The notes beneath the pieces are model-generated. The model did not search any database, had not been told where the DNA came from, and saw nothing but the letters and a program-made list of their open reading frames with translations. The position numbers and the translations under genes were made by a program. From an uncultured Treponema sp. (GTDB lineage Bacteria; Spirochaetota; Spirochaetia; Treponematales; Treponemataceae), in assembly GCA_947167345.1 (NCBI GenBank), contig CAMVHR010000014.1:1-62481 (forward strand): DNA of 62,481 nucleotides, in the 5' to 3' direction. Below are positions 2,763 to 59,430 of the stretch, piece after piece. Position 1 is the first letter of the stretch, and every line of letters begins with the position of its first letter.

Positions 2763-3446
2763 TTATTGCGAATCTGACTCCTTATCTAACATTTCTTCGA
2801 TAAGTAAACCAATATTTGTTCCAATCTTGTCCTTTAATTCAGTTAAAGAAGTTTCATACAATTTTGAATTTAATATTGCTATTCGAATTTTATCTTTAAA
2901 ATTATTTTCAAAATGTATTCTGGCTTTATTATAACTTCCACCCAATTTTGCCATTAAACATTTTTCAATATAAGTTCTGTTTCCATCTTTAGCATTTTCA
3001 AAAATCTCATTTTGTGAATACTCTGAACAATCAGAAAAATGTAATAACAGCCAGAACTCAAAACAAGGATTAGAAACACAAAAACGTATTTCCTTGTTTG
3101 TATCTGCCTGTAAGAGTTGAGTATATTGTGCTTCCGAAAAACTGCTTCTATCTCTATCAACGATTATGCATAAATCATCACCATCAAGATAGTTGGGAGC
3201 AGTTTTTATAGCTTCAATTGCTTCTTGATAAATATGAAGAGGATTTGATCCAGTGTTAGGGTCATGATTAATAGGAATTATTTCAATTAAGGGATTGATT
3301 TTAATTTCAACCTTATTATCCATGATTCCCTTGAAATATTTGTATTCTGTCTTTTTCCCTTCGCAAGCTATAAAATAACGTTTCGTAGGTTCTTCAGAAA
3401 ACTCTTCATATTCATAACGGACTCCATATGGTTGATTAATTCTCAT
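2763..3446 (-). CDS. abiLii: RloB-like TOPRIM protein, AbiL system component ii
   Basis: 227 residues. N-terminal YFIACEGKKTE places the TOPRIM glutamate at E29. DLCIIVDRDR supplies the acidic DxD (D97, D99), and NPCFEFWLLLHF is the characteristic RloB signature. ATG 3446 lies 3 nt after the stop of the upstream ATPase gene, with AGGAG overlapping that stop, so the two are translationally coupled. In AbiL-type abortive infection systems (and the analogous PARIS and OLD/Gabija pairs) the ATPase senses phage and the TOPRIM partner acts as a nuclease effector. That role is inferred from the family and from the gene pair. Confidence 0.85.
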   Translation of the reverse strand: MRINQPYGVRYEYEEFSEEPTKRYFIACEGKKTEYKYFKGIMDNKVEIKINPLIEIIPINHDPNTGSNPLHIYQEAIEAIKTAPNYLDGDDLCIIVDRDRSSFSEAQYTQLLQADTNKEIRFCVSNPCFEFWLLLHFSDCSEYSQNEIFENAKDGNRTYIEKCLMAKLGGSYNKARIHFENNFKDKIRIAILNSKLYETSLTELKDKIGTNIGLLIEEMLDKESDSQ

Positions 3447-3448
3447 TA

Positions 3449-4843
3449 TTACTCCTTTGATTCTGAATCAAAAGGTGTATATATGGAATCAAACAAAGGA
3501 ACTGCTCCATATCTACCATCTAAATATGCATCTTCAATTTTTTTGTCAAACCGTTCCTTGAATTTATCAAATGGATAAAGAATACTTTCTCCACTATGAC
3601 CGGCTTCAACAAAGAAAATTTCATCCTGTCTTAATAATTTAAGATTTAATAAATGACTTTCATGTGTTGTGATAATCAATTGAATATTCTTATTTTCTGC
3701 TAATTTTAAGAATGACTTAATAAACTGCATTGTTAATTGAGGATGTAAACTTCTATCAATTTCATCAATAACAAAAACTGAATTTTCTTTTTGTATAAAT
3801 AAAACTGATAACAAATCCAATAAACGTTGAGTTCCATCTGATTCTTCTGCAAGAGAGAAATAAACTCCAGGAACATTGAAATGCTCAAATGTAATTTCTG
3901 TAAATACAGGAGTTCTGTCTCTGAATGTAACAAATATTAGACGACCATTACAATTCATCCTAAAACCACATTGATCGCAATCCTTGTCATTTTTATCACA
4001 TTCTGGTGGACAAGCACGAATAATCGACTCTTCTATTTCTTTACGGAATTCAGAGTTAAGTTTATCTAACGCTTGTTCTTTAGATATTTCGCATGGAATA
4101 ATTTTAGAAATACCTGTTTTAAATGAACTTAATGCATTAAATAATTCGTCAATGTTTTTTTGAGAGAAACAATCATAACCAGATATAGATGTATCAGGAT
4201 AAGAAATATTTAATCTAACAATCCAAGCAAATAATTTTCTAAGGATAATTAACTTAGGATTACTTCTGTAAAGTTCTTCCTTATTAGAAACAATTTCAGA
4301 AAGAAATAATTTTTTTGATACAGACTTAAAATCATCCATATAAACTTTCATTCTTTCTGCATTCTTTTCGGTCAAATATTCTGGATTAAAATAAATTTGT
4401 TTGTTGTCTATATTTCTAGTAAAAATTGGAATATCTTTATTATTCTTACCTAATTTTATAAGCCACTCTTCGCATACTCTTTTCTGGAAAATAAGTATTT
4501 CGAAACCATATGCATAAATCTCATCGTCAATACAAATTTCAAATTCAAAATAAGAAGTTTTGTCTTTGTTTTTTGGACTCAAACGATTATAACTATATCT
4601 CTTTGCCTCTAATAAAGGATGTTCCATTCCAACCATTACAACTGTTTGAGCATATTCCATAGCTTTTATGAAATTGGATTTACCTGAAGCATTTGCACCA
4701 AAGATAGAGGCAAACTTCAATAACTTAAAATCTTTTGTTTTAAACAATCTTTCTTTTTTATTCTGTATAGAACCAGATATAAGGGACAATGTTTGATTTT
4801 TATCAAAAGAACAGAAATTACCAACGGTAAAGCGAGTCAACAT
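3449..4843 (-). CDS. abiLi: AAA_21/RloA-like ABC-type ATPase, AbiL system component i
   Basis: 464 residues with an ABC/SMC-like ATPase fold. Walker A is GANASGKSN (K55), the signature-like LAEESDGTQR is near 331-340, Walker B is FVIDEID (D360/E361), and the H-loop is ITTHESHLL. Such DNA-repair-like ATPases pair with RloB proteins as phage sensors. Between the two ATPase halves sits a cysteine cluster (C278, C282, C289, C292, C298; C-x3-C-x6-C-x2-C-x5-C) that could bind zinc or an Fe-S cluster. GGGAGG precedes ATG 4843, and a good promoter lies at 4877-4905. It is divergent from the CBASS operon. Confidence 0.85.
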   Translation of the reverse strand: MLTRFTVGNFCSFDKNQTLSLISGSIQNKKERLFKTKDFKLLKFASIFGANASGKSNFIKAMEYAQTVVMVGMEHPLLEAKRYSYNRLSPKNKDKTSYFEFEICIDDEIYAYGFEILIFQKRVCEEWLIKLGKNNKDIPIFTRNIDNKQIYFNPEYLTEKNAERMKVYMDDFKSVSKKLFLSEIVSNKEELYRSNPKLIILRKLFAWIVRLNISYPDTSISGYDCFSQKNIDELFNALSSFKTGISKIIPCEISKEQALDKLNSEFRKEIEESIIRACPPECDKNDKDCDQCGFRMNCNGRLIFVTFRDRTPVFTEITFEHFNVPGVYFSLAEESDGTQRLLDLLSVLFIQKENSVFVIDEIDRSLHPQLTMQFIKSFLKLAENKNIQLIITTHESHLLNLKLLRQDEIFFVEAGHSGESILYPFDKFKERFDKKIEDAYLDGRYGAVPLFDSIYTPFDSESKE

Positions 4844-4876
4844 ATAGACCTCCCGTAAATTTTATTCCCTGATATT

Positions 4877-4905
4877 AATATAGCACGTCTCAAGGAAAAT
4901 ATCAA
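4877..4905 (-). promoter_or_regulatory. Promoter for abiL operon
   Basis: On the minus strand TTGATA (4905-4900), a 17-bp spacer and TATATT (4882-4877) give a near-consensus sigma-70 promoter. Start would be near 4870, about 27 nt before ATG 4843 and upstream of its Shine-Dalgarno. Confidence 0.65.
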
Positions 4906-4946
4906 TTTTAAAATGTGAAAAATTCACATTTTATTTGTGTTTTTAC

Positions 4947-4975
4947 TTGCTTTTTATAATTGTTATGATTATATT
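4947..4975 (+). promoter_or_regulatory. Promoter for CBASS operon
   Basis: TTGCTT (4947-4952), 17-bp spacer, TATATT (4970-4975). Transcription from about 4982 would give the patatin gene an unusually long leader of about 180 nt containing the structures described below. An overlapping alternative is TTTACT with TATGAT, 16-bp spacer. Confidence 0.55.
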
Positions 4976-4991
4976 TTCTTTAGAGGGGAAA

Positions 4992-5095
4992 ATAAAAAAA
5001 ACACTAAAGAACTGGTACTTCTTTAGTGCTTTACTCAACTATTTCGTATGAATTAGTAATCCATAAAAGAAACGGAGATTGCTTTTCAAAACAAT
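4992..5095 (-). ncRNA. Candidate ~100-nt antisense RNA between abiL and CBASS
   Basis: The minus strand has its own promoter (TTGACT 5130-5125, 17-bp spacer, TAAAAT 5107-5102) and a textbook intrinsic terminator (10-bp stem 5028-5019/5011-5002, 7-nt loop, then eight U from 5001-4994). The transcript between them is non-coding and antisense to the CBASS leader. It begins with a small hairpin (ATTGTT/AGCAAT) and carries AATCTCCGTTT. Alternatively it is an attenuated upstream start of the abiL operon. It is predicted from signals alone. Confidence 0.5.
4994..5028 (-). terminator. Intrinsic terminator upstream of abiL
   Basis: CACTAAAGAA (5002-5011) and TTCTTTAGTG (5019-5028) form a perfect 10-bp stem. 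On the minus strand it is followed by an eight-T tract (5001-4994). It lies upstream, not downstream, of the abiL genes, so it must end a short separate RNA or act as an attenuator. Confidence 0.75.
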
Positions 5096-5154
5096 GACCA
5101 AATTTTAATAAATTTGCCATTTCAAGTCAATCCTCCGTTTGCCCCATCAGGAGG
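5070..5154 (+). promoter_or_regulatory. Possible two-state leader controlling capV ribosome binding site
   Basis: In the CBASS leader CCTCC (5132-5136) can pair with the Shine-Dalgarno GGAGG (5150-5154). The same CCTCC region (5128-5140) is also complementary to AAACGGAGATTG (5070-5081): 12 bp with one bulged C. The two pairings exclude each other, so a switch between a closed and an open ribosome binding site is possible. The antisense RNA covers 5070-5081 and could tip the balance. The complementarity is seen; the function is inferred. Confidence 0.4.
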
Positions 5155-5162
5155 TGTGCCTT

Positions 5163-6134
5163 ATGAGCACAGAAAATAAAAAAACTTTCCATATCCTTTC
5201 AATTGACGGAGGTGGAATTCTCGGACTTTACTCTGCTGGTATCTTAAGCAACATTGAAAAAGATTTTTTCAATGGAGAACCTTTATCTTCTCATTTTAAT
5301 TTGATAACAGGAACTTCGACAGGTGGAATTATTGCCCTTGCGTTAGCTACTGGCTGTCATGCATCAGAAATAGGAGATTTCTATACGAGATATGCCAATC
5401 GAATTTTTCCATTAATAAGACGTAATAAAATTGGGCTATTTTCGAATAAATATTCCAATAAACAATTAAGAGAAGGACTCTACGAGTTTTTTGGAAGTAA
5501 AAAGATTAAGGATTGTGAGACTCATGTATGCATTCCAGCAATAAATGCTGCAACATGTGCTCCACTAGTATTCAAAACAAATAACAATGGTTCTCAGAAT
5601 CGTGATGATGAATGCAAACTTGTTGATGTCGCTTTGGCAACATCTGCTGCACCAACATTTTTCCCGTTGCACCACTTTGAAAACTATCAAGGTCTTGTTG
5701 ACGGTGGATTATGGCAGAATAATCCCTCACTTATTGGATTAATTGAAGCCTTAACTTGTTTTGTCGGAGAAGGAAAAGCTTTTGATGATATAAGTATTTT
5801 ATCTATAGGAAATCCTAATTCCAGTATAAAAGAATCTGTAGATACAAAATCTAAAAAGTCTGGTTTATTGAAATGGAAAGCAAATATTATTTCACTTCCA
5901 ATGAAAGTCAATTCAATAGGAACAGATTACATTATTAAAATTCTTCATCGTTCAAAATCATCATATTTAAGTAAATATGAAAGAATTGAATGCGGCTCTC
6001 TCACAAACGATTGTTCAACATTAAAACTTGATAGTGCTGATAAACATTCATTAGCAAAATTAATGGAATTAAGTCATCAGGATTACAACAACAAGAAAGT
6101 TGCACTGACAGATTTTTTTAAGGAGGAAAATTAA
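5163..6134 (+). CDS. capV: Patatin-like phospholipase, CBASS effector (CapV type)
   Basis: 323 residues from ATG 5163, chosen because CAGGAGGTG lies just before it; the TTG at 5139 has no such site. Patatin hallmarks are the oxyanion loop DGGGILG (residues 15-21), the nucleophile elbow GTSTGG with Ser52, and the catalytic Asp180 in VDGGLW. In CBASS such enzymes are switched on by a cyclic dinucleotide and degrade the inner membrane, killing the infected cell. It is first in a three-gene operon with a CD-NTase and an E2-like gene, the classic arrangement. The leader has unusual structure (5070-5154). Confidence 0.93.
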   Translation: MSTENKKTFHILSIDGGGILGLYSAGILSNIEKDFFNGEPLSSHFNLITGTSTGGIIALALATGCHASEIGDFYTRYANRIFPLIRRNKIGLFSNKYSNKQLREGLYEFFGSKKIKDCETHVCIPAINAATCAPLVFKTNNNGSQNRDDECKLVDVALATSAAPTFFPLHHFENYQGLVDGGLWQNNPSLIGLIEALTCFVGEGKAFDDISILSIGNPNSSIKESVDTKSKKSGLLKWKANIISLPMKVNSIGTDYIIKILHRSKSSYLSKYERIECGSLTNDCSTLKLDSADKHSLAKLMELSHQDYNNKKVALTDFFKEEN

Positions 6135-7061
6135 TTGAGTTTACATACAACTTTTATTGATTTCTGTTCAAAAATTACTATCTCTGACAGTAAGAAAGAC
6201 TCTATTATAAAGAGCCGCAATGCTATAAGAAATGTCATTCGAAATTATTTCAAAAATGAACTTAAAATAAATCAGCCAAAATTCCGTATACAGGGATCAT
6301 TCTCTATTAATACTGCATTACAACCCATTGATGATAATGAAGTCGATATTGATGACGGTTTGTATTTAGAGCACATAAATCCTTCTGATACAGATACCTG
6401 GCCAACGCCAAAAGAAATTCATAAAACTCTTATGGATGCCCTTGATGGTCAGACAAAAGATGGTTGCGAAGATAAAACAAGCTGTGTCAGAGTTGTTTAT
6501 CGCAATGATTACCATGTTGATATTCCAGTTTACATCATGAAAGATTCTCACGCTCTTTTGGCGAATAAAAAAGCAAATGAATGGCAAACAAGTGATTCAA
6601 AAGATTTTAAGGACTGGTTCTTTGAAAATAGAAAAAATGAACAAACGACCAGAATTGTAAAATACTTAAAAGCTTGGCGTGATTATAAAAATATTAATAT
6701 GGCTAGTATTGAGCTTACAATTCTGGCAGTTAAACACCATGTAAACGATGATGATGACGCCATATCTCTACAAAAGACTGTTGATGCAATATATTCAGAA
6801 TTAAATTTTTACCGATATATCAAAAAAACTGTGGCTCCATATGAAAATCTTTGGGAAGATAAAGACGACATAGATTCTGTATTAAAGAAAATCAAGCAGT
6901 TCAAAGATGACTTAAACTCTGCTGTTTCAAATGATTCTGAACATCGAGCGTCTGTTATTTTAAGGGAACAATTTGGAGACCGTTTTCCTCTAATAAAAGA
7001 AATCAATAATTCAGATTCTTTGAGAAATTATGAAACAGGTCCTAAACCATGGAAAATGTAA
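6135..7061 (+). CDS. CD-NTase (cGAS/DncV-like nucleotidyltransferase) of CBASS
   Basis: 308 residues. The nucleotidyltransferase motif is GS (G54-S55) followed by EVDIDDG with metal ligands D71 and D73, and a third acidic residue D129 in HVDIP. This fold makes cyclic di- or trinucleotides on phage infection. Translation starts at TTG 6135, immediately after the capV stop and behind AAGGAGG; no ATG occurs in the first 90 codons. The stop overlaps the next gene by 13 bp. The product (for example cGAMP) cannot be told from sequence, though patatin effectors commonly answer to 3'3'-cGAMP. Confidence 0.92.
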   Translation: MSLHTTFIDFCSKITISDSKKDSIIKSRNAIRNVIRNYFKNELKINQPKFRIQGSFSINTALQPIDDNEVDIDDGLYLEHINPSDTDTWPTPKEIHKTLMDALDGQTKDGCEDKTSCVRVVYRNDYHVDIPVYIMKDSHALLANKKANEWQTSDSKDFKDWFFENRKNEQTTRIVKYLKAWRDYKNINMASIELTILAVKHHVNDDDDAISLQKTVDAIYSELNFYRYIKKTVAPYENLWEDKDDIDSVLKKIKQFKDDLNSAVSNDSEHRASVILREQFGDRFPLIKEINNSDSLRNYETGPKPWKM

Positions 7062-7672
7062 TCGAAAATAGTATCAATTATATAAAAACTAAGTTTCCCG
7101 AAGTCTCAATAGCGTTAAAACCAAGCTCTGTTGAATTTGAAGGACGTTTTATAATTGATGCTAGAAGAAATAATTTCGAAATACATGAGGCACCCTTGTT
7201 AAAGATTGTGATGTCAAACAATTATCCAACAATACAACCTGTTTGTTATGATATCGATAATTGCGTGACTTATGATCATGTAAACAAAGATGGTGCTTTA
7301 TGTTTAAGTACGGAAATTGATATTGCTCTAAAGTTAAAAGATTCTAAGTGTATTTCTGATTTTATCGCAGAATTAATCATTCCTTACTTTCTTTCATATA
7401 AGTACTGGAAAGCAACAGGGCGAGACTTATTTGGAGATTATTCTCATGGATGGAAAGGTATTTTTGAATCCATAAGAACGTACTTAAAGACACCTTCTTT
7501 ATCAGATATGGACTGTTATTATTTATTGATATGGGCTTCAAAAACAAAGAAATTTAAAAAAGGTATTCCTCGTGAGAAACAAGAATATTTCAAAAAAAAC
7601 TATCTTCCCCTTATGAAGGAATTACGACTTTTTGGTATTCCATTATTAAGACGCCAGATCAAAATAATTTAA
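7049..7672 (+). CDS. E2-like protein of type II 'short' CBASS
   Basis: 207 residues. It resembles a prokaryotic E2 ubiquitin-conjugating fold: YP near residue 60, then H77 and the catalytic-type C85 in YDHVNKDGALCL. No E1 or JAB domain is present in this protein or nearby, matching the short type II CBASS in which an E2-like protein alone is thought to prime the CD-NTase. It overlaps the CD-NTase end, which indicates coupled translation. The C-terminus ends 17 bp before IS copy 2, so the stop appears native. The E2 call is confident; the conjugation target is inferred. Confidence 0.87.
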   Translation: MENVIENSINYIKTKFPEVSIALKPSSVEFEGRFIIDARRNNFEIHEAPLLKIVMSNNYPTIQPVCYDIDNCVTYDHVNKDGALCLSTEIDIALKLKDSKCISDFIAELIIPYFLSYKYWKATGRDLFGDYSHGWKGIFESIRTYLKTPSLSDMDCYYLLIWASKTKKFKKGIPREKQEYFKKNYLPLMKELRLFGIPLLRRQIKII

Positions 7673-7689
7673 AGCAATGGGGCTGTCCT

Positions 7690-8967
7690 GAGACTGAGAA
7701 AGTCTTTCTGTAAATTCCTAAAAAGTAGGCGATGTGGTAAAATAAACACAGGAGCCTACTTATGGCAAAAGAAAAAACAACACCACATAAAGTCGTAATG
7801 ACAGAAGGCAAAAGAGAAATTATCAGAAATCTGCTTTCAGAATACGACATCCAATCAGCCCAGGATATTCAGGAAGCACTGAAAGATCTGCTTGGCGGAA
7901 CCATCAAAGAAATGATGGGAGCTGAGATGGAAGACCACCTGGGTTATGAAAAATCTGAGCGTTCTGACAATGATGATTACCGGAATGGTTACAAATCCGA
8001 TGTCACAGACAAGATACTTCCGCAGATTGAAGAATGGCAGAACCGTCCGCTAGATGATGTTTATCCGGTCATTTACATCGATGCCATTCACTATTCAGTC
8101 AGAGACAACGGAATGATTGTCAAAAAAGCCGCTTATGTAATTCTTGGACTTACCTGTGACGGACGCAAGGAAGTACTGTCTCTCGCCATAGGAGAGAATG
8201 AGAGCGCCAAGTTCTGGCTGAACGCTCTGAACGAGCTTAAGAACCGTGGAGTGCAGGATGTTATGATTATCTGCGCTGACGGCCTTACCGGCATCAAAGA
8301 GGCCATCTCTGCAGCCTTCCCGAAAACTGATTACCAGCGCTGTATGGTTCATATGGTTCGCAACACTCTGAAATATGTTGCATCAAAAGACATGAAGTCT
8401 TTCGCCGCTGACCTGAAGACTATTTACAATGCTGTTTCCGAAGATGAGGGACAGAAGGCCCGTGACCGTGTTGTCGAGAAATGGTCCGCTAAATATCCGA
8501 ACTCCATGAAACGCTGGATTGAAAACTGGGATGTGGTCGTGCCGATATTCAAGTTCTCAAAAGATGTCAGAAAAATCATCTACACCACGAATGCCATCGA
8601 AAGCTTGAATTCCAGCTACCGCAAGCTCAACCGCCAGCGAAGCGTATTTCCGAACGACCTGGCTCTGCTCAAGGCTCTTTATCTTGCAACTTTTGAAGCA
8701 ACGAAAAAATGGACTCAGCCGATTCACAACTGGGGTCAGGACTACGGTGAAATGTGCATAATGTACGAAGACCGCCTGCCTGACTAATCAAAAAAAAGAC
8801 AACTTCCCGGCAGGGAAGCTGTCTTTAGTGTTTAACTCTTGATAAAAAATCAGCAATATTTTATATTCAAAAAAAGAAACAGTAGCTGTCAGCTGCTTGC
8901 GGGATATACCTGCATTAAAACTTTTTACCGCAGCCTACTGAATTTACAGAAAGGACTTCACAGTCTC
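7690..8967 (+). mobile_element. IS256-family insertion sequence, copy 2 (same internal deletion)
   Basis: 1278 bp, same orientation and ends as copy 1 (IR at 7690-7717 and 8940-8967). The left octamer gctgtcct and right octamer attttaca do not match each other or those of copy 1. With copy 1 it brackets 2619-7689 like the arms of a composite transposon. Confidence 0.92.
7762..8787 (+). CDS. IS256-family transposase with internal deletion (copy 2)
   Basis: Its 341-residue translation is identical to that of copy 1, including the missing segment after residue 78 and the DDE residues D107, D173 and E280. An identical deletion in both copies means either that the shortened element itself moved, with transposase supplied in trans, or that one copy arose by recombination or duplication from the other. 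Confidence 0.9.
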   Translation: MAKEKTTPHKVVMTEGKREIIRNLLSEYDIQSAQDIQEALKDLLGGTIKEMMGAEMEDHLGYEKSERSDNDDYRNGYKSDVTDKILPQIEEWQNRPLDDVYPVIYIDAIHYSVRDNGMIVKKAAYVILGLTCDGRKEVLSLAIGENESAKFWLNALNELKNRGVQDVMIICADGLTGIKEAISAAFPKTDYQRCMVHMVRNTLKYVASKDMKSFAADLKTIYNAVSEDEGQKARDRVVEKWSAKYPNSMKRWIENWDVVVPIFKFSKDVRKIIYTTNAIESLNSSYRKLNRQRSVFPNDLALLKALYLATFEATKKWTQPIHNWGQDYGEMCIMYEDRLPD

Positions 8968-9130
8968 ATTTTACATTCTAAACTTTCTCAAGATCTTATT
9001 CTCATCATTCAATAATCCATTCTGTAAGCTGGCTTTCAGTACTTGAATAGTTTACACCTACCTTGACGATTCTACTGTCGTCATCTGAGTAATTGTCAAA
9101 TGTTGTGGACAGAAGTTTGAATCAGCATTT
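8968..9130. other. Spacer without recognisable gene
   Basis: AT-rich stretch between IS copy 2 and the PBECR4 gene. I see no open frame, hairpin or repeat in it that I can assign. Confidence 0.5.
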
Positions 9131-58311: not shown

Positions 58312-58369
58312 AACTTACATCTCCTTGTACATCAAATGAATAGCAAAAATTTATGCCAAGACAAGCACT

Positions 58370-58462
58370 CTTCTCTTCCCCTGGATAATCAAGTTGCAAT
58401 TCCCTTGTTTTTTATCTTGTCTAAAACTTCGCACATGGTCGTACCTCCCTCAGCCACATTAA
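58370..58462 (-). repeat. Partial duplicate of the Rpn-family gene
   Basis: 93 bp here closely match 58768-58860 inside the Rpn-like gene (same length, few substitutions). No frame runs through the copy, so it is a remnant of a second Rpn-like gene downstream of the first. Confidence 0.75.
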
Positions 58463-58597: not shown

Positions 58598-59430
58598 TTA
58601 CTCACTCAACAGTCCTTCATCTTCAAGTAACTGCTGAAGATACTCTCTGTCTGTAGATGCCCTGCGCAGGTCTTCCATGCGGTTCTCCTCCAACAAGCGG
58701 TTAATGAGTGCCTGAGTAGATGCAACTCCTGTAAGTAAACCTTCTTTTCTTCCTGTCGCCAGACCTTCTTTTCTTCCTCTGGCTAATCCTGTTGCAATTC
58801 CCCTGTTTTCTACCTTGTCTAAAACTTCACACATGGTCGTACCTCCCTCCGCCACATTAAGCGGTATCTGTATATCTGCAAACCTTCTGTCTTTCGTCAA
58901 TACTGACATCAACTGCAAAACCTCATGTACATGGCGGATTGTCTCCCTTGACGGCTCGTAATCCCGGTTTATCCTCATGCGCACAAAATAATCTGCTACA
59001 ATCCTAAAGTCGCTCTTGAACTTCCTCACTGTCTCTGGTTCCAGCCATGCTATCTCAAACACATTCACCCTGTAGTCGTTGACATACGGCTTCAGTTCCT
59101 CTGGTACATTGAAGCACTCCAAGAGGCTTCTGTGTTTGTTCCACCTTTCCATGCCGAAGTACAGCACCAGTGTCACTATCGGATAGCGCACCTTGCACAC
59201 TTTGCTGTCTCTGCTGTCCTTATCCGCCCTTCTTTCCAGAACTTCGCTACGTCTCGCTCCTGCTCGTGGAGCTTTCCGCCGTCAGCCTTGTACTGCGACA
59301 GCGGCATCGCGTCTGTAAGCTCCTCTTCCTTTACAAGTTCCCTTCCGTCAAAAAGCAGAACGTTCACTATGTCGCAGAATACATCGTTGTATGCTTCTAG
59401 CGTCTTTTCCGCTATGTCCTTTTCTCCCAT
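58598..59430 (-). pseudogene. Rpn-family PD-(D/E)XK nuclease/transposase-like gene, broken
   Basis: The N-terminal part (59430 down to about 59200) reads MGEKDIAEKTLEAYNDVFCD, FDGRELVKEEELTDAMPL and FWKEGRIR. The C-terminal part (from about 59194) continues in another frame with RYPIVTLVLYFGMERWNKHR, and ends with the Gly/Arg/Lys repeats GLARGRKEGLATGRKEGLLTG. The segment between, which in relatives holds the PD-(D/E)XK core, is lost along with the frame. The domain family is firm; the gene is inactive as it stands. Confidence 0.85.

Follow-up and report, generated by a model that had tools for sequence, protein, structure and literature searches.

A predicted antisense RNA opposite the apparently captured leader of a Treponema CBASS operon

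Divergent AbiL and CBASS genes

The window, by which we mean the whole stretch of 62,481 nucleotides analysed here, is contig C14 of a 3.2-Mb Treponema-family genome of a rumen-type Treponema. Within it, minus-strand AbiLi/RloB genes (4843-2763) diverge from a plus-strand operon of CBASS, a suicidal defence against phages, across an intergenic region of 319 bp, and the membership of this operon in CBASS is evident from its cyclase, effector and E2 genes, which are all adjacent (Table 1). The plus-strand promoter TTGCTT/TATATT and the ~180-nt leader that a first-pass annotation of this DNA had assigned to the patatin gene were both present, with the patatin ATG at 5163. Two Mutator/IS256-type elements of 1282 bp and 99.9% identity (1341-2622 and 7690-8971) bracket the AbiL and CBASS genes in the manner of a composite transposon; their transposases are 341 aa each and presumably share one common internal deletion relative to the usual length. 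A 94-bp direct repeat with 89% identity occurs at 58369-58462 and 58767-58860 of the window.

Table 1. Features of the AbiL-CBASS region, in window coordinates
Feature	Coordinates	Strand	Basis or remark
RloB/AbiLii	2763..3446	-	Pfam RloB 2.9e-35; PADLOC
AbiLi-type AAA ATPase, divergent neighbour	3449..4843	-	PADLOC AbiLi 1.8e-77
Dyad TAAAATGTGAAAAATTCACATTTTA, candidate AbiL-linked operator between divergent promoters	4909..4933	.	25 bp; upstream of both promoters
Promoter of CBASS leader, TTGCTT (4947-4952)-17 nt-TATATT (4970-4975)	4947..4975	+	
Leader of the CBASS operon (~180 nt); its homologue precedes the 82-aa small-protein gene in G139/L099	4982..5162	+	local alignment
Intrinsic terminator of the predicted antisense RNA (stem 5028-5019/5011-5002 plus U8)	4990..5032	-	on the plus strand, leader hairpin 1 after an A tract
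Predicted antisense RNA, ~100 nt	4992..5095	-	fold; ends deduced from promoter and terminator
Left arm AAACGGAGATTG, part of the antisense target	5070..5081	+	fold prediction
Candidate antisense promoter, TTGACT (5130-5125)-17-TAAAAT (5107-5102)	5102..5130	-	sequence match; -35 position
Right arm CAATCCTCCGTTT, containing UCCUCC able to pair with the Shine-Dalgarno sequence	5128..5140	+	fold prediction
Shine-Dalgarno AGGAGG of capV	5149..5154	+	context CCCATCAGGAG..ATGAGCACA common to small-protein genes
CapV-type cGAMP-activated patatin phospholipase (CBASS effector)	5163..6134	+	Pfam Patatin 1.5e-28; NCBIfam CBASS_lipase 2.5e-87
DncV-like CD-NTase (CBASS cyclase)	6135..7061	+	NCBIfam cGAS 3e-56
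E2-like CBASS accessory protein	7049..7672	+	PADLOC E2 2e-27

The dyad between the divergent promoters has the core TGTGA-N5-TCACA, which recurs upstream of AbiL homologues in the Treponema family and has no other occurrence in this genome; its uniqueness suggests a locally encoded regulator or autoregulation. The dyad at 4909-4933 probably belongs to AbiL control. In the form GTGAAAAAATCAC or TTCGATTTTTTCGAA, such a dyad precedes AbiL-type ATPase genes across the family; it was observed at L047, L048, L049 and L051-L053 and, in variants of TCGATTTTTTCGA, at L055-L066.

A leader shared with a small-protein gene

The closest relative of the CBASS leader was found not at another CBASS operon but at locus L099 (genome G139, Treponema sp. 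RGIG8034 by identity), where local alignment gave a score of 63 over more than 120 nt, compared with 42 for the best of 500 shuffles. The L099 leader precedes the gene of an unrelated 82-aa protein; the window leader precedes CBASS. Homologues of the small-protein gene at L099 and at L100 (genome G210) have long structured leaders, and the window leader folds better than all of 200 shuffles (z -3.7). The plus-strand promoter has equivalents at L099 (TTGCCG-17-TATATT), L100 (TTGCCT-17-TAAATT) and L101 (TTGCCG-17-TATCTT). No further close leaders were found in pattern and covariance-model searches of 274 family genomes, in which the covariance model recovered only the window and G139; a match in G105 was rejected because it lies within a coding gene. 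DNA searches with the leader against its own genome, the family and plasmids returned only the leader itself or short AT-rich matches, and an Rfam search gave no match above the gathering score and nothing meaningful. The inverted repeats had suggested an integron attC-like site, which was rejected by eye.

The start of the phospholipase gene also points to the small-protein gene. The other CBASS phospholipases begin with MEEERNSG, MNKTF, MKRCDR or MTAKK, so that the MSTENKK start in the window looks chimeric, and its start codons ATGAGCACA are common to small-protein genes. In G053 an AbiL homologue faces the 82-aa small-protein gene, whose ribosome-binding site and start, CCATCAGGAGGTGCCCATGAGCACAAATAAAAA, nearly equal the window's CCCATCAGGAGGTGTGCCTTATGAGCACAGAAAATAAAAA. 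G260 has the same divergent AbiL-CBASS layout as the window with a minimal leader, in which TTGCCG-17-TATCTT is followed directly by the ribosome-binding site and no hairpin is present. From these sequences we infer that CBASS may have come to stand behind the leader either through loss of intervening genes by deletion or through a recombination event within the A-rich stretch at the start. A 13-bp direct repeat, GAAAATAAAAAAA, occurs at 4988 and 5172, and a repeat of that length arose in 4 of 1000 shuffles; the transposon-like insertion that it might indicate was rejected, since the ends have no inverted repeats and recombination with a small-protein leader explains the join better. Matches in IMG/VR to CCATCAGGAGRTG..ATGAGCA were mostly starts of IS3-type transposases and were taken as coincidence.

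The 82-aa protein itself (KVTSKK...AGSVLSQSNKER, phrog_5079-like; L099-L204 and L086-L098) occurs across many phyla and belongs to no Pfam or NCBIfam family. Its genes lie near HNH, PD-(D/E)XK, TIR and AbiL-type genes, often in defence loci.

The minus-strand unit and its conservation

Opposite the leader, the first-pass annotation had placed a minus-strand promoter (TTGACT/TAAAAT, 5130-5102) and an intrinsic terminator, and we found both where it had put them, the promoter a good sigma-70-like one and the terminator strong. The promoter matches at 10 of 12 positions and is among the best three of 22 promoter-like matches in 3000-9000. However, such matches are of a kind common in the AT-rich DNA of the window and as a class are no commoner than in shuffles (mean 24.7), so that the match carries little weight by itself; its shuffle p value, taken over the stretch from hairpin to ATG, was 0.027. 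The terminator has a stem of 14 pairs (5032-4998, A-U closing pairs included) followed by U8; when the 220-nt leader was shuffled with its dinucleotides preserved, 0.4% of the shuffles had an equally strong terminator on the minus strand. The putative minus-strand RNA folds better than all 200 of its shuffles (z -4.0). The locus thus has the make-up of a candidate cis-antisense leader unit, with an opposite-strand promoter within the leader and a 3' end defined by an intrinsic terminator.

Conservation of terminator and promoter in related loci, which the first-pass annotation had named as a check, was followed in the window and in all three known Treponema loci of the 82-aa protein (L099, L100 and L101). 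In a uniform scan the minus-strand terminator was present in all four treponeme leaders, at shuffle rates of 0.4-0.8% each, and a plus-strand terminator in none. Minus-strand promoters, each followed by a hairpin and U tract, occur at L099 (TTGAAT-17-TATAGT) and L100 (TTGACA-17-TAATTT), and the distance from the start of the -35 box to the start codon is kept in three of the four leaders (32, 30 and 32 nt in the window, L099 and L100, respectively); at L101 the terminator is present and the promoter is poor and unconvincing. The likeness of L100 and L101 to the window is one of architecture, with none in sequence beyond it. At L099 the stem of hairpin 1 (GGTTGTTGAG/CTCAACAACC) has an entirely different sequence and still forms 10 bp, with the adjoining A tract kept, as expected of a minus-strand terminator.

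Among 101 loci of the 82-aa protein from other organisms, only one, L191 (IMG/VR 3300025738_000034, 2237-2497), has the minus-strand terminator, which there follows a perfect minus-strand TTGACA-16-TATAAT. Although not from a treponeme, L191 carries the clearest candidate unit of all these loci; at L097, a Vibrio plasmid locus, the terminator comes with a weak promoter. The best-promoter p values combined to 0.043 for the four treponeme leaders and to 0.0013 with L191 and L097 added, the scores of L099 and L101 not being significant singly. The antisense unit is supported by a conserved terminator, promoter position and leader architecture. Comparison thus carries it beyond a guess made from one sequence, and the antisense RNA predicted at 4992-5095 is probably real.

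Among the leaders of 12 CBASS effectors, including the window's, the other 11 have no minus-strand terminator or antisense unit. Since the homologous leader belongs to a small-protein gene, the unit recurs in treponemes and these 11 CBASS leaders, that of G260 included, are without it, the unit appears to be part of a captured leader. What had been proposed as a dedicated CBASS antisense RNA thus holds up as a conserved antisense unit, but not as one dedicated to CBASS.

A predicted translational brake and its rivals

A possible mode of action is suggested by the folding of the leader. The CBASS operon would be transcribed from 4947-4975 through the captured leader, within which the opposing promoter would make an untranslated antisense RNA of ~100 nt ending at the terminator. 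In the free leader the left arm would pair with the right arm, leaving the Shine-Dalgarno sequence relatively open; with the left arm occupied by antisense RNA over 4992-5095, the right arm would be free to pair through its UCCUCC with AGGAGG and so block translation of the phospholipase. Sequence and comparison show the elements, their conserved layout in treponemes and the homology of the leader to that of a small-protein gene; synthesis of both RNAs, their pairing in the cell and the resulting repression of translation are inferred. The pairing of the arms recurs in differing sequence, as AAACGGAG/CTCCGTTT in the window and GCTCCATCGG/CCGGTGGAGC at L100; at L099 the arms GAACA..CAATTG/CAATTG..TGTTC were read by eye and lie outside the predicted minimum free energy structure. 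The long-range stem shows two compensatory double changes between the window and L099, which 111 of 500 shuffles equal; as the window and L099 are the sole close relatives among these leaders, covariation had to be judged from a single pair, which is too few.

When the antisense target was masked, predicted accessibility of the Shine-Dalgarno sequence fell from 0.33 to 0.17 in the window, from 0.93 to 0.75 at L099 and from 0.53 to 0.20 at L100. In the masked folds the window's CCUCC pairs with its own GGAGG, AGGAG of L100 is covered by a strong hairpin that the right arm closes, and the L099 right arm pairs across the start codon. Accessibility of the whole initiation region dropped in all four leaders compared (window, L099, L100 and L191), to a level matched or undercut by 18, 5, 0 and 13 of 150 shuffles, respectively. 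The effect in the window is the weakest, which leaves room for RNase III decay or polymerase collision. By these models a translational brake on the phospholipase is slightly favoured, and we put the whole account, of a captured leader with an antisense RNA that occludes the Shine-Dalgarno sequence, at a probability of roughly 0.6.

The antisense RNA might be real and act in another way: the duplex could be cut by RNase III, colliding polymerases could interfere with transcription, or the RNA could bind where ribosomes stand by. We regard this as unlikely: the weak prediction of occlusion in the window and the convergent promoters ~120 nt apart speak for it, as does an anatomy like that of type I antitoxins, a group with many members acting at sites other than the ribosome-binding site (PMC4147584), but complementarity between right arm and Shine-Dalgarno sequence recurs in leaders of different sequence. 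Less likely again is a functionless relic, carried along when CBASS recombined behind the small-protein promoter. The chimeric start, with its codons common to small-protein genes, would fit such recent shuffling, as would the weak occlusion and the absence of the unit from the CBASS operon of G260; against it, the terminator retains a perfect stem with U8 and the minus-strand promoter outscores those of L099 and L100.

Two further readings would give the minus-strand signals to a gene. The first-pass annotation had held that no gene lies upstream of the terminator, which is true of conserved genes; a 29-codon open reading frame (5120-5031) is nevertheless there, with GGAGG at 5138-5134, an ATG at 5120 and a stop directly before the terminator. 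That the terminator ends this small or remnant gene is very improbable, as searches of phages, plasmids and the genus gave no convincing relatives of the frame, L099 lacks it, L100 does not share it, and it contains the promoter -10; by the same comparisons the predicted antisense RNA would be non-coding. The alternative offered earlier, that abiL transcription starts early here and is attenuated, has the shared strand and the adjacency of AbiL in its favour. It is nonetheless disfavoured and the least probable of these readings, since L099, L191 and L097 carry comparable units with no abiL after the terminator, and AbiL has a promoter-like site at 4905-4877 and a candidate operator of its own.

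Antisense RNAs against a leader that act by transcription attenuation are known from pT181 (RNAI) and pIP501 (RNAIII). The window's candidate resembles them in its target; unlike them, the four treponeme leaders have no plus-strand terminator, which argues against attenuation of the pT181 type. The predicted mechanism is closer to that of pSK41 RNAI of Staphylococcus RepA_N plasmids, a counter-transcribed RNA of ~83 nt with two stem-loops and a 5' tail. Its complement in the rep leader lies ~100 nt before the start, and when it binds there a stem-loop forms in which the ribosome-binding site is hidden (PMC5703833). For the window's antisense RNA, induced sequestration of the ribosome-binding site is predicted, and weakly so; its target would be an immune effector and not a plasmid replication initiator; the likeness is one of predicted mechanism, and no sequence relation is claimed. 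Like the antisense RNAs of the type I toxin-antitoxin pairs SymR/SymE, SR4/BsrG and IstR-1/TisB, which restrain a potentially lethal protein at translation (PMC4147584), it would hold back translation of a potentially lethal protein; in contrast to the small peptides of those systems, this one belongs to a multi-gene signalling immune operon and is an effector that needs cyclic nucleotide activation.

The control described for CBASS is by proteins at the promoter. CBASS is kept low until needed by the protein regulators CapW, which acts at the promoter (PMC9122588), and CapK/CapS (PMC13373217); the window's candidate would instead act on leader RNA. Neither capW nor CapK/CapS lies next to the window's CBASS operon, whose neighbours are AbiLi/RloB and an insertion sequence, and no CapW-type palindrome covers the -10, the dyad being upstream of both promoters. 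A full-text search of open-licence PMC found no paper joining antisense RNA and CBASS in title or abstract; cis-antisense control of leaders is known, and its use on CBASS is apparently undescribed. If the proposed brake is real, it would add an RNA layer to CBASS control that could itself sense transcription shut-off. The apparent capture of the leader also points to defence genes exchanging entire regulatory leaders within defence islands. A broader and unlikely extension is that leader and antisense RNA form a movable cassette, acquired by different defence genes through recombination and setting a threshold on suicidal immunity: because the antisense RNA needs continual synthesis, shut-off of host transcription by a phage would lift the brake and release translation of the effector from pre-made mRNA.

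A CD-NTase scan of the genome-contig collection and a patatin scan of the viral-contig collection gave no matches. At related loci in G036 (L031, 6297-7225) and G033 (L032, 6978-7908) the cyclase of CBASS is divided between two frames, and in G123 (L033, 3298-5487) cyclase and phospholipase are both broken; these are decaying copies or assembly errors. In G033 the CBASS operon is followed, after ~1.5 kb, by an HTH regulator that is WYL-like by eye (L032, 10115-11101). Between an Abi_2 gene and the CBASS operon, G129 (L029, 4720-4890) and G123 (L033, 5488-5650) have a promoter, a plus-strand intrinsic terminator within ~70 nt and a second promoter; this element, which has no Rfam match, is likely a small RNA gene, nearly identical in the two species.
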